Origin: Minisyncoccota bacterium
GTDB lineage: Bacteria; Patescibacteriota; Minisyncoccia; Phycocordibacterales; UBA9973
Assembly (NCBI GenBank): GCA_025453495.1
Contig: JALOQM010000005.1
Location: forward strand, 1 to 39,993
Direction: 5' to 3'
Length of the DNA: 39,993 nucleotides
Part shown: positions 11,254 to 38,881 of the stretch, piece after piece
How the letters are laid out: every line of letters begins with the position of its first letter
How positions within the stretch are numbered: position 1 is the first letter of the stretch
Position numbers and translations under genes: made by a program
The notes under the pieces: generated by a model
Seen by the model: only the letters and a program-made list of their open reading frames with translations
Database searches by the model: none
Told to the model about the DNA's origin: nothing

Positions 11254-12492
11254 ATGATCGGTGTTGGAACAGCTATATTTTATACAGCAGTGTTTCTCTC
11301 TGTGTATGTACAGGTCTTTTTCTTGGTTACATTTCTCGAGAAACGACGACATATCGTCATCCGCAAGGATTCGATTTCACTCCCAGAGTATCCAGGGGTC
11401 ACAATTATCGTCCCGTGCTGGAATGAAGAAAAGACTGTCGAGAAGACAGTGGCATCACTCCTTGCACTTGAATATCCCAAAGACAAATTACATATCACGA
11501 TTGTCGATGATGGCAGTACAGACAACACATGGGGTGTACTTCAGAAGTATGCACATACTCCAAATATTCATCTCTACAAAAAAGAAAACGGCGGCAAGCA
11601 TACTGCGATGAACTACGCGCTTGCACAGACGACGACGCCATTTACTGGTTGTCTCGATGCTGATTCGGCGGTGCATCCTGAGGCGCTTAAGCGCATCATG
11701 ACGTATTTCGCGGATCCTGAGATTATGGCAGTAGCACCATCAATCATGATAGAGAAGTCAAAGAATCCAATTCAGATCGCCCAGCGCGTCGAGTATGATA
11801 TGGCAGTGTATGTCAAAAAGATGCTCGCATTCATAGGTGGCATTCATGTCACTCCTGGGCCGTTTTCTATTTTTCGCAAGAAAGTGTTTGATGATCTTGG
11901 TAACTATCGTAAAGCACACAATACCGAAGATCAAGAGATTGCACTTCGTATGCAGTCATATGGATATAAGATTGAGCATTGTCCGGATGCATATGTGTAT
12001 ACCGTAAGTCCAAATACGGTGAAGAAGCTCTACAAGCAGCGTCTCCGTTGGATTTATGGTTTTCTCAATAATTTGATTGATTATCGCCATTTGCTCTTTC
12101 GCAAGAAATACGGAAATGTCGCATTGTTTACACTACCATCAGGTTTGATCTCAATCGTGACGGCTATGTTTGGTTTTGGCTATATTCTGTATCGATTTGG
12201 TATATATATTGCAGATAAAGTTGAACAGATACGCATTGTCGGGTGGCAGTTTTCATTGAGACCATTTGATTGGTTCTATGTCAGCACAGAATCAACTATT
12301 TTTCTCTCTATTCTCTTGTATGGTCTCGTTATTTTGGCAATTATGCTTGGTCGTAAAATGTCTCAGGATCGCAAGAAACTCTCGCTCGATTTCCTTTATT
12401 TTATAGTGATCTATAGCGTGGTGGCACCGTTTTGGCTTGCAAAAGCCGTGTATAATACAACTGTTGCCAAAAAGATGCCAACTTGGCGTTAA
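11254..12492 (+). CDS. Membrane-bound family 2 glycosyltransferase
   Basis: A processive-type GT2 enzyme of the kind that makes a beta-linked extracellular polysaccharide from a nucleotide sugar. The 412 residues comprise an N-terminal membrane helix (about 5-28), the GT-A catalytic domain and three C-terminal membrane segments (about 285-410). Catalytic motifs are visible: the first Asp in IVDDGSTD near 84-90, LDADS near 134-138, TEDQE near 224 and the QRLRW motif near 262. This is the D, D, D, QxxRW signature of cellulose, hyaluronan and poly-GlcNAc synthases. Its sugar specificity cannot be read from the sequence. It is the first gene of a likely three-gene unit with the thioredoxin-like and AAA+ genes. 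Confidence 0.9.
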   Translation: MIGVGTAIFYTAVFLSVYVQVFFLVTFLEKRRHIVIRKDSISLPEYPGVTIIVPCWNEEKTVEKTVASLLALEYPKDKLHITIVDDGSTDNTWGVLQKYAHTPNIHLYKKENGGKHTAMNYALAQTTTPFTGCLDADSAVHPEALKRIMTYFADPEIMAVAPSIMIEKSKNPIQIAQRVEYDMAVYVKKMLAFIGGIHVTPGPFSIFRKKVFDDLGNYRKAHNTEDQEIALRMQSYGYKIEHCPDAYVYTVSPNTVKKLYKQRLRWIYGFLNNLIDYRHLLFRKKYGNVALFTLPSGLISIVTAMFGFGYILYRFGIYIADKVEQIRIVGWQFSLRPFDWFYVSTESTIFLSILLYGLVILAIMLGRKMSQDRKKLSLDFLYFIVIYSVVAPFWLAKAVYNTTVAKKMPTWR

Positions 12493-12524
12493 TATGTTAT
12501 GTATCTTATAGTAGAAATCAAAGG

Positions 12525-13220
12525 ATGAATCAAAAAATCGACTGGAAAAAATATATACTCGTATTTTTCATTACTCTTTCACTGTTTCTGACAGCAGTCT
12601 ATCTTTCTAATTTCTTTCATCGCAGTAGAGCAGAAGAGATCAAGTCAATCCAAAGCAAAATTGCTATCGACATACTCTCTTCAGAGACACAATATGCATT
12701 GCTTGAAGATCTCTCATGCAAAGATGTCTCAAACTCAATGCTTTCCCAGGAGCTCAATTCACTTGGCGACAAAATAGATTATCAAGAATCAAATAGTTCT
12801 GCAGGAAATGCAGCTGATCTTGTTGATCTCAAACGATATTACTCATTACTTGAAATAAAAGATTATCTGCTCATGCAGAAAGTGACAGAACGATGCGGCG
12901 AAAAAGCATTCTTTATTCTCTATTTTTATACTGATAAAGAAAATTGTAGTGAGTGTGTGAAGCAAGGGTATGTGTTGACGGCTCTGCGAGAGAAGTACCC
13001 ATCGCTTCGTGTGTATTCTTTTGATTATAGTCTTGATCTCTCAGCAGTGCGCGCACTCAAATCAATCTACAAAATCGATGACAGAAACCTTCCGGCGCTC
13101 ATCATAAACAAAGAAGTAGTCACTGGCTTTAAGAGTGTGGAAGATATCGAAGAGCAATTTCCTGAACTTGAGACATTGTTGATTGTCGAAAAAACGAAAG
13201 AAGAGCTAGGCAAGAAATAA
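12525..13220 (+). CDS. Membrane-anchored thioredoxin-like protein
   Basis: I place the start at the ATG at 12525, not the TTG at 12483, because the latter overlaps the glycosyltransferase end and only adds a poorly conserved-looking stretch. This gives 231 residues. A short basic N-terminus and a membrane helix (about 8-29) are followed by an extracytoplasmic domain. The C-terminal half looks like a thioredoxin fold: a strand FFILYFYT, then ENCSEC with a C-x-x-C pair near residues 141 and 144, and LPALIINKEVVTGF carrying the expected cis-proline. The first half is helical and unrecognised. It is probably a thiol-disulfide protein of the cell envelope; the redox role is inferred. Confidence 0.6.
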   Translation: MNQKIDWKKYILVFFITLSLFLTAVYLSNFFHRSRAEEIKSIQSKIAIDILSSETQYALLEDLSCKDVSNSMLSQELNSLGDKIDYQESNSSAGNAADLVDLKRYYSLLEIKDYLLMQKVTERCGEKAFFILYFYTDKENCSECVKQGYVLTALREKYPSLRVYSFDYSLDLSAVRALKSIYKIDDRNLPALIINKEVVTGFKSVEDIEEQFPELETLLIVEKTKEELGKK

Positions 13221-13260
13221 CTCTCGTCTTGCAATTTCTTTTCTGCTACACTGATTGCAT

Positions 13261-15141
13261 ATGAAAAAAGGTATTGCCGCATGGCCGCTGTTTGTCGAAT
13301 TCGCTTTTTCTTTCTTTTCGATTCCACTACTTTTTGGTACATTACTTTCTCCACTCCGACGCGAAGGCAATGCAGGGAATATGGATCTTATCGAGAGTAT
13401 TGCATTCTTCTTTCTCTCGCGGGTTATCGGCTTTGTTCTTCGTGTTGCCTGTATTACGCTCGGACTTATTTTTACTTTCTTTGCTCTCCTGTCGCTGCCG
13501 ATTTTTTTCCTTCCAGTGTCGCTTAACAGAGATGTACTGATGCGCAAAGGAAGTTTCGGTATGGAGCTTTCGTTTAGTACTACGTATTTCCTAGATACAC
13601 ATAGTCGGAGACTTTCATTTTCATATGCGCAAAAATTGTATGGTCGTGATGTTGTAGTAAGTATGATTGTTCGTGGCCTGACGAGAGATGGCAATAATAA
13701 TGTATTGCTTGCAGGTGTTCCAGGTGTCGGTAAATCCACAATTCTTGGTTATCTTTCTCAAATTGCAAGTTCAGGTCTTGCTCCCAAAAAAATTCGCTAT
13801 CATCGTGTCATTGAGCTTATGATGGAGGGCATTAGTATGGATGATCTTTCGAGAATGCTCGAAGAAGCAAAGCAAGCAAAAAATGTAATTCTCGTTATTG
13901 AAAATATCCATCTCTATACCGATGCAAGTAGTATCCTCCTGCCATATCTGCAGTCAGAAGATATTGCCATAATTGGTACCACCGATGGTCATGCGGCAGC
14001 ACTCAATTCTGAGCACACTGAATTCGCAAGAATGTTTGAACAAGTCAATCTAGCGTCTGCTTCAGCTGAGGATACTATACTCATTCTAAAAGATGTTATC
14101 CGTGCTCATGGCATGCATATTGATGAGAATGCAATTCAAGAAATTATTCGTCTTACAGGACGCTACATGCCAAATGCTCCTGAACCAGCACGATCACTTG
14201 ATATACTTGAAGAACTCCGCGCACTAGGTACACAGATCACTCTTGTTGATGTCCAGCAGATAGTATCACAAAAAACAAATATACCACTCGGTGCGCTTTC
14301 TGCTAATGAGACAGAAGTCTTGCAGACACTGGGCGAGCGTATGCGCAAGAAGATTATAGGTCAAGACGAAGCGGTCAAAGATGTCACTGCAGCGATCCGG
14401 CGTCTGCGCGCTGGTATCGCTGATCCCAAGAAACCTGCTGGTAGTTTTCTCTTTCTTGGACCAACTGGCGTGGGAAAGACGCAGACTGCAAAAGTACTTG
14501 CCGAAAACTATTTTGGACATTCAAATGCAATGATACGTTTTGATATGAGTGAATTTGCTCTTGAGGGAAGTATTGAAGTTCTCAAACAACGTATCGCTCG
14601 AGCTATTGAACTTACCCCACTCTCACTTGTTTTTTTTGATGAACTCGAGAAAGCACACTCATCAATACATAACCTCCTTTTGCAAGTGCTTGATGAAGGA
14701 CGTTTGACAGAAAATAATGGACAGACTGTAAACCTCAAAAATGCGATTATTATTGCTACCTCAAATGCTGGAAGTGCTGATATTATCGCAAACCCAGAGA
14801 TTTCTAAAACGAGTCTTATTGCGCTACTGATAGAACGTGGTATCTATGCACCAGAATTCCTTAATCGTTTTAGTTCGGTGGTACTTTTTTCTCCACTTGA
14901 TCCAAAAGAGACCAGACAGATTGCCGAACTTATGCTCGCAGACGTTGCTGCACGACTGCTTGCTGACAAGAAAATTATACTGCAAGTACAAGATGCAGTC
15001 ATGGATCAGGTCGCCGCAGTTGGGTTTGATCCACAATTTGGTGCGAGACCGATCAAGCGTGCAATTGAAGAACTTATTGAAAACAAAGTTGCTGATGCGA
15101 TTATCGCTGGAGCAGGCGAGGGGACACTTACTATTGGTTAA
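13261..15141 (+). CDS. Membrane-anchored Clp-like double AAA+ ATPase
   Basis: A 626-residue relative of ClpB/ClpC with two membrane segments (about 8-30 and 42-85) in place of the Clp N-domain. The first AAA+ module has Walker A GVPGVGKST near 152-160, but its Walker B reads VILVIENIH, where the usual Asp-Glu is Glu-Asn. The second has Walker A GPTGVGKT near 400-407, an intact Walker B LVFFDELEKAH, sensor IIIATSNAGS and the ClpB-like C-terminal PQFGARPIKRAIEE. Both segments that normally carry the pore loops (KYRGEF in D1, GYVG in D2) are missing by shortening. It may act as a membrane-linked remodeller or scaffold, not a threading unfoldase. The ATG at 13261 is preferred over the TTG at 13255. 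Confidence 0.8.
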   Translation: MKKGIAAWPLFVEFAFSFFSIPLLFGTLLSPLRREGNAGNMDLIESIAFFFLSRVIGFVLRVACITLGLIFTFFALLSLPIFFLPVSLNRDVLMRKGSFGMELSFSTTYFLDTHSRRLSFSYAQKLYGRDVVVSMIVRGLTRDGNNNVLLAGVPGVGKSTILGYLSQIASSGLAPKKIRYHRVIELMMEGISMDDLSRMLEEAKQAKNVILVIENIHLYTDASSILLPYLQSEDIAIIGTTDGHAAALNSEHTEFARMFEQVNLASASAEDTILILKDVIRAHGMHIDENAIQEIIRLTGRYMPNAPEPARSLDILEELRALGTQITLVDVQQIVSQKTNIPLGALSANETEVLQTLGERMRKKIIGQDEAVKDVTAAIRRLRAGIADPKKPAGSFLFLGPTGVGKTQTAKVLAENYFGHSNAMIRFDMSEFALEGSIEVLKQRIARAIELTPLSLVFFDELEKAHSSIHNLLLQVLDEGRLTENNGQTVNLKNAIIIATSNAGSADIIANPEISKTSLIALLIERGIYAPEFLNRFSSVVLFSPLDPKETRQIAELMLADVAARLLADKKIILQVQDAVMDQVAAVGFDPQFGARPIKRAIEELIENKVADAIIAGAGEGTLTIG

Positions 15142-36919: not shown

Positions 36920-38881
36920 ATGAATTCTGAAGATACAGTAACTTATTTTGGCGCGGCCGATTATCGTGGCAAAAAAACTAAATTTGGCATCAAAGCCAAG
37001 GATCGAGCTCGCCATGTGTATGTCATCGGTAAGACTGGTATGGGTAAGTCGACCCTACTTGAAAACATGGCCGTACAAGATATTTTGAGCGGGGAAGGCA
37101 TGGCATTTATTGATCCACACGGTGGCACGGCCGATAAACTACTCGAATATATCCCTGAAGAGCGCATCAAAGACGTTGTCTATTTCGCGCCATTTGATCT
37201 TGAGAATCCAGTCTCATTTAATGTGCTTGAAGATATCGGCTTTGACAAGCGTCATCTCGTTGCAAGTGGTCTCATGAGTACTTTTAAGAAAATCTGGGTT
37301 GATGCCTGGAGTGCTCGCATGGAGTACATATTGAACAACACACTTCTCGCATTACTTGAATATCCAAACTCGACGCTGCTTGGTGTCAACCGCATGCTTG
37401 CAGAAAAAGACTTCAGAAATGCTGTTGTTGCAAATGTGAAAGATCCTTCAGTGAAGTCATTTTGGACCGAAGAATTCGCAAAGTTCTCCGCAAGTTATAT
37501 GCAAGAAGCAGGCGCTGCGATTCAAAATAAGATTGGACAATTCACTGCCAATCCAATTATTAGAAATATCATCGGCCAACCCAAGTCGAGTTTTGATATT
37601 CGTAAACTCATGGATGAGAAGAAAATTCTCATCATGAACCTCTCTAAAGGACAGATTGGTGAACAGAATGCATCACTTTTGGGCGGTATGCTTATCACGA
37701 AGATTTATCTTGCTGCCATGTCACGCGCTGACATGAGCGGATTTGAACTTAAAAAACTTCCGAATTTTTACTTTTACGTCGACGAATTTCAGTCGTTTGC
37801 AAATGCGACCTTTGCAGACATTTTGTCAGAAGCGAGAAAATATAAACTCAATCTGACGATCGCGCATCAATATATCGAGCAAATGGAGGAAGAAGTGCGC
37901 GATGCGGTGTTTGGGAACGTCGGTACCACTATTGCTTTTCGCGTTGGTCCTTTTGACGCTGAAGTGCTTGAGAAAATTTTTGCGCCGACCTTTTCACGTG
38001 AAGACCTCGTGAATATCAGTAAGTACCAGATCTATTTGACGCTTATGGTGGACGGGATTGGCTCACGACCTTTCTCAGCAGCGACGCTTGATGCTATACC
38101 TCTTCGTGAAGATTCCAACAAAGAACGAGTAATCCGAAGCTCACAAGAATTATTTGGTCGGCCAAGGAAGATAGTTGAAGAAGAAATCAATGCATGGTTT
38201 GCGCCAATCACACCGCCACAGCGCCCTCGTCCGCAAGGAGAAGGAGAAGGAAACACTGGGCGTCCGCGCTCATTTATCGAAGAAAGGGCACCACGTTCTG
38301 CTGATCGATTTGAAAAGCCACGACCTGAATATAATCGTGATGGACCATCTCGCCCGCGTCCTGCTGGAGATGGAGAAGTACATACTCGTCAGCCACGCCC
38401 TCATTCATTTACCGAAGATAGACCACAGAGACTACAACACCAGAAGGCGGAAGAAAAGAAGCCGTTTGCAAGTCTCAAAGACATGCTTGCTATGCTTGAG
38501 AGTGGTGAAGTGAAAGAAGTCAAAGAAGTACCTTCTATTCCTCCGCAAACACATCCACCAAGATCTCCTGTGCCGACACGATCTGAGAATAGTCGTCCTA
38601 TGAGACACCCACAACATGAGCGATCAGCCACACGAGCACCAGTGCAGTCAACTCCTCGTACAATTCCACTTTCGTCATTGAAACAACCACCAGTACAATC
38701 ACAAAATCTCTCTGCACTCAGAGACGTACTTGCATCAGTGACAAAGGCAACCGAAGCTCCTGTTTCAACACCCGCGCCTCTTCCAAAACAACAAGAAGTA
38801 CCTAGATCTGCTACCGTTCCTTCGATACAACAGCAAAGAAAAGAAGTCTCGGAAGATGTCCTTCGAAAGATTTTGGAGTAG
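36920..38881 (+). CDS. TraG/VirD4-type (type IV secretion coupling) ATPase with disordered tail
   Basis: A 653-residue protein of the HerA/TraG ATPase group, which moves DNA or protein substrates. Walker A is VIGKTGMGKSTL (near 35-46) and Walker B FYFYVDEFQSF (near 284-294). A typical LTIAHQYIEQM and the arginine-containing TTIAFRVGPFDAE follow. The usual N-terminal membrane helices of coupling proteins are absent, so it must be recruited to the membrane or act in the cytoplasm. From about 410 to the end it is Pro/Arg/Glu-rich and disordered, with three short similar helices: SLKDMLAMLE, ALRDVLASV and SEDVLRKILE. No relaxase or other conjugation gene is visible, so transfer is not implied. 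Confidence 0.85.
   Translation: MNSEDTVTYFGAADYRGKKTKFGIKAKDRARHVYVIGKTGMGKSTLLENMAVQDILSGEGMAFIDPHGGTADKLLEYIPEERIKDVVYFAPFDLENPVSFNVLEDIGFDKRHLVASGLMSTFKKIWVDAWSARMEYILNNTLLALLEYPNSTLLGVNRMLAEKDFRNAVVANVKDPSVKSFWTEEFAKFSASYMQEAGAAIQNKIGQFTANPIIRNIIGQPKSSFDIRKLMDEKKILIMNLSKGQIGEQNASLLGGMLITKIYLAAMSRADMSGFELKKLPNFYFYVDEFQSFANATFADILSEARKYKLNLTIAHQYIEQMEEEVRDAVFGNVGTTIAFRVGPFDAEVLEKIFAPTFSREDLVNISKYQIYLTLMVDGIGSRPFSAATLDAIPLREDSNKERVIRSSQELFGRPRKIVEEEINAWFAPITPPQRPRPQGEGEGNTGRPRSFIEERAPRSADRFEKPRPEYNRDGPSRPRPAGDGEVHTRQPRPHSFTEDRPQRLQHQKAEEKKPFASLKDMLAMLESGEVKEVKEVPSIPPQTHPPRSPVPTRSENSRPMRHPQHERSATRAPVQSTPRTIPLSSLKQPPVQSQNLSALRDVLASVTKATEAPVSTPAPLPKQQEVPRSATVPSIQQQRKEVSEDVLRKILE

Follow-up and report, generated by a model that had tools for sequence, protein, structure and literature searches.

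Substrate threading by ClpB and ClpC relies on aromatic pore loops. Torsins are Clp-related ATPases that lack pore loops yet are essential, and they carry a hydrophobic N-terminus (PMC4999309; PMC5425593). They possess no arginine finger of their own and rely on an activator (PMC7175109). Bcs1, a membrane AAA ring, carries a protein across the membrane in the folded state, without unfolding it (PMC12219900). Membrane protein families enriched in CPR bacteria are mostly poorly annotated (PMC6744442).

Here, we describe a Clp-type protein encoded in a stretch of 39,993 nucleotides from a Minisyncoccota bacterium (contig JALOQM010000005.1), termed the window in the following. With ClpC, ClpA and ClpB the protein shares the presence and order of two AAA+ modules, a ClpC-like fold, the full set of catalytic D2 residues and the D2-small domain. 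Unlike these proteins, it lacks the aromatic pore loop 1 of both rings, the ClpP loop, the N-domain and the M-domain, the Walker B glutamate of D1 is replaced, and a membrane partner domain is present at the N-terminus. Torsin resembles it as a Clp-related AAA+ protein with a membrane tie and without aromatic pore loops (PMC4999309; PMC5425593), but has a single AAA module, is located in the ER lumen, depends on LAP1/LULL1 and features a cysteine at sensor II, whereas the window protein has two modules, an intact D2 arginine finger and a GAR motif at sensor 2. Bcs1 is a membrane-anchored AAA ring, as proposed for the window protein, the transport of folded protein being a property of Bcs1 (PMC12219900); it differs in its single AAA module, its heptameric state and its specific N-terminal domain, and the Bcs1 family is not among the Pfam matches of the window protein. 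FtsH, also a membrane-anchored AAA+ protein and found in the same genomes, differs by its M41 peptidase domain, for which the Pfam scan of the window protein gave no match. The protein is comparable to Torsin or Bcs1 and a member of neither. A non-threading role appears to be the most economical reading, because loop loss, loss of the D1 glutamate and membrane anchoring are properties of the whole clade; this pore-less, membrane-paired Clp is probably a non-threading remodeler of membrane protein complexes.

Gene and Product

The gene (positions 13261–15141, plus strand) is an undamaged reading frame for a two-ring Clp-type AAA+ protein of 626 amino acids, delimited by the intact frame, an alignment with ClpB, the starts of orthologs and an AlphaFold2 model. 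Translation starts at the ATG at 13261, in agreement with ortholog starts, while a mechanical list of open reading frames gave TTG 13255. By sequence pattern, a −10-like hexamer TACACT preceded by TGC (13247–13252, plus strand) is located 8 nt upstream of the ATG. In the orthologs inspected (L048–L066), an extended −10 element of the TGnTAnAAT type occupies the same place, 6–8 nt before the ATG, and its counterpart in the window is recognizable as TGCTACACT (13240–13263). The closeness of this element to the start codon suggests a leaderless mRNA and a self-standing transcription unit. Pfam matches comprise AAA_2 (2e-35) and ClpB_D2-small (3e-20), and the NCBIfam equivalog scores lie far below their cut-offs for both ClpB (329 of 1232 bits) and ClpA (300 of 993 bits). 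On the basis of Pfam, motifs and fold, the window protein is a double AAA+ protein of the Clp/Hsp100 type in the broad sense.

Loss of Pore Loop 1 in Both Rings

An earlier note, made from the sequence alone, had described a D1 without a KYRG-like loop and a D2 in which no GYVG loop follows DMSEF. Both statements are borne out by alignment with Thermus thermophilus ClpB, in which gaps of nine and 12 residues cover the KYRG and GYVG loops, respectively. The site of the D1 deletion (13819–13836, plus strand) corresponds to residues 187–192, which form a six-residue turn between β2 (182–186) and α2 (193–206) in the AlphaFold2 model; in D2 (14557–14613, plus strand) a single unbroken helix (437–451) occupies the place of pore loop 1. 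The monomer model, computed from a 34-sequence alignment, has a mean pLDDT of 83.7, with values around 90 in the AAA+ cores and low values in the membrane domain, and its top Foldseek match is ClpC (9gi1, TM 0.71).

Loops and motifs were aligned for 20 fusion-type proteins including that of the window (group A) and 46 longer relatives (group B), together with 13 ClpC/ClpB-type controls and two proteins of a third Clp-like type. The D1 pore aromatic was confined to the controls (Y or F in 13/13) and occurred in none of the 20 group A and 46 group B sequences. Likewise, the D2 pore tyrosine was missing from all members of both groups and present in 13/13 controls and both proteins of the third type. 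Extended by 59 further members, the clade did not contain a single GYVG-type motif (0/125 vs. 15/15 comparison proteins). As judged from the aligned motifs, the hallmark of threading unfoldases, i.e., the aromatic KYRG and GYVG loops, is absent from the clade (0/66 in either ring). The stretch from DMSEF to DELEK spans 27 residues in every group A protein, 33–39 in group B and 39 in the controls. A sequencing or assembly error is ruled out, as 19 orthologs from independent genomes share the deletions together with the E/K-N Walker B motif of D1. The second loop region of D2 (GRLTxxxG) is retained, so the earlier statement that both pore loops are missing holds for loop 1 of each ring and not for D2 as a whole.

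This retained region, together with the fully conserved D2 motor, is what could allow the protein to go on threading: the second D2 loop, the shortened loop 1 or an element of the partner would grip the chain, and the protein would act as a membrane-protein unfoldase with an unorthodox pore. The best sequence argument that some clade members may still grip substrate is provided by 12 of 105 members not belonging to group A, in which glycine plus an aromatic residue is found somewhere in the shortened D2 segment; the one nearest to a real loop (L124:830–3346, plus strand) keeps SPAGYGQ. These members may be intermediates in loop loss. In the window branch the D2 loop has gone entirely and is replaced by one helix, and the D1 loop is gone too, which renders continued threading unlikely.

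ATPase and Docking Motifs

Also in line with the earlier note, the Walker B motif of D1 (NVILVIENIH, 13882–13911, plus strand) carries asparagine in place of the catalytic glutamate, as it does in all 20 fusion-type proteins. The glutamate is gone in 65 of the 66 proteins of groups A and B. The peptide pattern used to scan contigs was built around NVILVIEN, a bias that favors the Glu-Asn state among the loci thus retrieved and leaves the pore-loop counts unaffected; among 14 relatives found without this pattern (L008–L011, L013–L021, L028) the residues vary and the glutamate is lost in 13. The D1 Walker A motif (GVPGVGKS, 13714–13737, plus strand) is intact in 20/20 group A proteins, and most of group B have lost its Ser/Thr, so D1 is probably a ring that binds nucleotide or has a purely structural role.

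The Walker B, sensor and arginine finger of D2 had been noted as seemingly intact, and the counts across the clade agree: the lysine of Walker A (GPTGVGKT, 14458–14481), the DE of Walker B (LVFFDE, 14626–14643) and the asparagine of sensor-1 (TSN, 14758–14766) are found in 66/66 sequences, the arginine finger (LNR, 14866–14868) and the sensor-2 arginine (GAR, 15046–15048) in 65/66 each (all on the plus strand). This conservation bears on a further explanation, according to which the protein would be a scaffold or assembly switch akin to Torsin, with ATP binding leading to membrane assembly and slow hydrolysis to disassembly, and with no mechanical work on a client. Loss of the D1 Walker B glutamate, which resembles the situation in ATP-trap mutants, would fit such a switch. 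So would the Clp ancestry, missing pore loops and hydrophobic N-terminus of the Torsins (PMC4999309; PMC5425593). However, Torsins need an activator for the arginine finger (PMC7175109), whereas the retained D2 arginine finger and sensor 2 suggest an ordinary self-sufficient cycle here, and we regard a pure switch as rather improbable.

An [LIVM]GF loop for docking of ClpP was sought in D2 and found in 11/13 ClpC/ClpB-type controls and 0/125 clade members; in the window, the position of the LGF/IGF loop of ClpC corresponds to 14767–14805 (plus strand). With the loop missing from all clade members tested, a partnership with ClpP is unlikely.

The N-Terminal Membrane Protein

Two hydrophobic segments, helical in the model, were identified by hydropathy at residues 7–27 (13279–13341, plus strand) and 62–84 (13444–13512, plus strand), the second also being evident in two alignments (A1 and A2), where it is preceded by a helical stretch in which R54 and R61 are invariant. 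In unfused relatives the Clp gene is immediately preceded by a separate gene for a membrane protein of about 130 amino acids, and the two often overlap or are only a few nucleotides apart. A hidden Markov model of the free-standing protein matched the N-termini of group A (E-value 5e-13 for the window protein, down to about 1e-18 for close orthologs), and hhalign gave a probability of 99%. According to these matches and alignment A2, approximately residues 1–90 (13261–13530, plus strand) represent the small membrane protein, and the window gene is, by homology, a fusion of this protein with a Clp that has dropped its own membrane and N-domains. The window protein has no Clp N-domain at its N-terminus, while unfused relatives have an N-terminal helical domain and align with full-length ClpC. 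In keeping with this, the model of a group B protein (L092, pLDDT 82.5) exhibits a pair of hydrophobic helices at the N-terminus as well as a helical N-domain, the remainder being ClpC-like, with full-length ClpC as the top structural match. The earlier note was therefore right about the two membrane segments, the anchoring and the missing N-domain, and fell short in taking for a mere anchor what is a fused partner protein. For the small protein, a Pfam scan of the members examined yielded no family, and no relatives of solved structure were found at E-values up to 1.

A second kind of fusion, in which the small protein is joined to a longer Clp, occurs in Moranbacteria (L077, L098, L101, L102).

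Descent and Other Clp and FtsH Machines

A tree of 77 D2 sequences separated controls and third-type proteins (95/95) from groups A and B. Group A branches from among group B as a monophyletic unit (100/100), and the Moranbacteria fusions are placed elsewhere, a topology according to which the fusion arose at least twice. The genome of the window encodes its own ordinary ClpC with KYRG and GYVG, ClpP on another contig and FtsH, so the pore-less Clp is an addition to the usual machines and not a substitute. Replacement of FtsH is ruled out, FtsH being separately present in 138 of 143 genomes of the class as well as in that of the window.

The D2 of the window protein is 42% identical to that of ClpC from the same genome, and in many Nomurabacteria the gene is convergent to clpP-tig. 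Both observations would suit a regulator of normal ClpC or ClpCP that acts via mixed rings or membrane recruitment. Against this speak the missing LGF loop, the long divergence of the separate clade and the location of clpP, which the window genome carries on a different contig and which is not among the neighbors in other lineages; taken together, such a function seems very improbable.

Distribution

Of 380 genomes sampled from Patescibacteria, 222 gave a match to the small-protein profile, and so did 218 of 384 from the class, with almost invariably a single copy in each genome; the two samples overlap and were drawn evenly rather than at random. As a check of specificity, 40 hits, among them weaker ones, were fetched from the two lists. 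All 40 lay beside or in frame with a clade-type Clp according to the HMM, with motifs as an additional criterion where they could be read; all 20 hits in frames of about 770–1000 amino acids were true fusions. Of the 57 loci in the contig scan, all but three had titles of CPR lineages or of bacteria without a lineage name, the exceptions being labeled Cryomorphaceae (L083), Mammaliicoccus (L087) and Pacearchaeota (L104). The Mammaliicoccus locus encodes an ordinary Clp with GYVG. An apparent frame of 2850 amino acids in L064 consisted of masked sequence only.

In open-licence papers we found no description of such a Clp in CPR bacteria, and the main text of a survey of CPR protein families makes no mention of Clp (PMC6744442). 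The family is widespread in Patescibacteria, a phylum-wide extent that the earlier note had missed, and is apparently undescribed so far. That the protein is a decaying ClpC duplicate without function, as the degenerate D1 motifs of many unfused relatives might hint, is hardly credible for a gene that a phylum with reduced genomes keeps as a single copy in over half of those sampled, with D2 motifs invariant over deep lineages and a constant partner.

Gene Neighborhood

A constant neighbor was sought across lineages, and none was found except the small membrane protein. One set of loci features serS, ftsQ, dprA and topA, another tgt, Glycos_transf_4 and rplU, and others are mixed. The arrangement topA-dprA // serS-ftsQ-like-(130 aa)-clp, a neighborhood conserved at the level of the order (L039, L042–L044, L046, L047, L092), is a possible clue to a context in the envelope or division. 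Neighbors in different lineages include genes for FtsQ-like proteins, MraY/WecA-type transferases, undecaprenyl diphosphate synthase, GtrA-type proteins and glycosyltransferases, and in the window a glycosyltransferase gene is located two genes upstream of the pore-less Clp. This envelope theme appears weak and is not evidence of function.

In Nomurabacteria (L048–L052, L054, L055, L061–L064; L033:7226–7831) the gene is often convergent with clpP, followed by tig (trigger factor) in several cases, and divergent from an RNase Y-like gene. The window also encodes a 245-amino-acid protein (12483–13220, plus strand) with a hydrophobic segment near its N-terminus and a Cys-x-x-Cys motif (NCSECVK), possibly thioredoxin-like, that has no Pfam match and was not found beside orthologs of the pore-less Clp. 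The third, soluble Clp-like type (553–554 amino acids; L037:6581–8242 and L038:5973–7637, both minus strand) has Asp-Asn in the D1 Walker B and keeps GYSG/GYIG in D2. It adjoins genes for a TraD/VirD4-like ATPase, a protein of about 105 amino acids and an acidic protein of 639–704 amino acids; the window gene at 36920–38881 (plus strand) clusters by BLAST with this ATPase.

Proposed Mode of Action

We consider it reasonably probable that the pore-less Clp is a membrane-anchored ring powered by D2 that remodels or dissociates complexes of the membrane or envelope without threading. The subunits are predicted to assemble into a membrane-anchored ring on the cytoplasmic side. D1, whose Walker A motif is still present in the window branch, would be a nucleotide-bound structural collar and D2 the sole motor, in which ATP turnover would alter the shape of the ring. 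The linker would transmit force from D2 to membrane domain and partner, which would engage membrane or envelope protein complexes and remodel or dissociate them, clients being shifted as folded pieces or by lever action.

Several lines of evidence argue for non-threading action, i.e., clade-wide loop loss with D2 motifs retained (125 members by motif), the separation of the clade from ClpC in a genome with normal ClpC, ClpP and FtsH, the constancy of the small membrane protein including its true fusions, a ClpC-like predicted fold with a loop in neither ring, and the precedents of Torsin (PMC4999309; PMC5425593) and Bcs1 (PMC12219900). The retained second D2 loop region and the displaced aromatic in the shortened D2 loop of some relatives count against it, and the variation of neighboring genes among lineages, with a weak envelope theme, counts against a remodeler. 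The earlier note had suggested a non-threading remodeler or membrane scaffold; its premises, i.e., loss of both aromatic loops and of the D1 glutamate and membrane anchoring, hold clade-wide, although the anchor proved to be a separate partner protein belonging to a phylum-wide family.

More tentatively, and with chances that we judge a little short of even, small subunit and pore-less Clp may together constitute a two-component membrane AAA+ machine of CPR bacteria, a bacterial counterpart in principle of Torsin and Bcs1. It would be a Clp-derived motor without threading, dedicated to membrane or envelope remodeling, characteristic of Patescibacteria and encoded by over half of the CPR genomes sampled.

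If this holds true, a Clp motor without loops that is tied to the membrane by a constant partner would represent a natural experiment on non-threading Clp action. As the pair is single-copy and easily recognized, it would also offer a handle on the biology of the CPR envelope.
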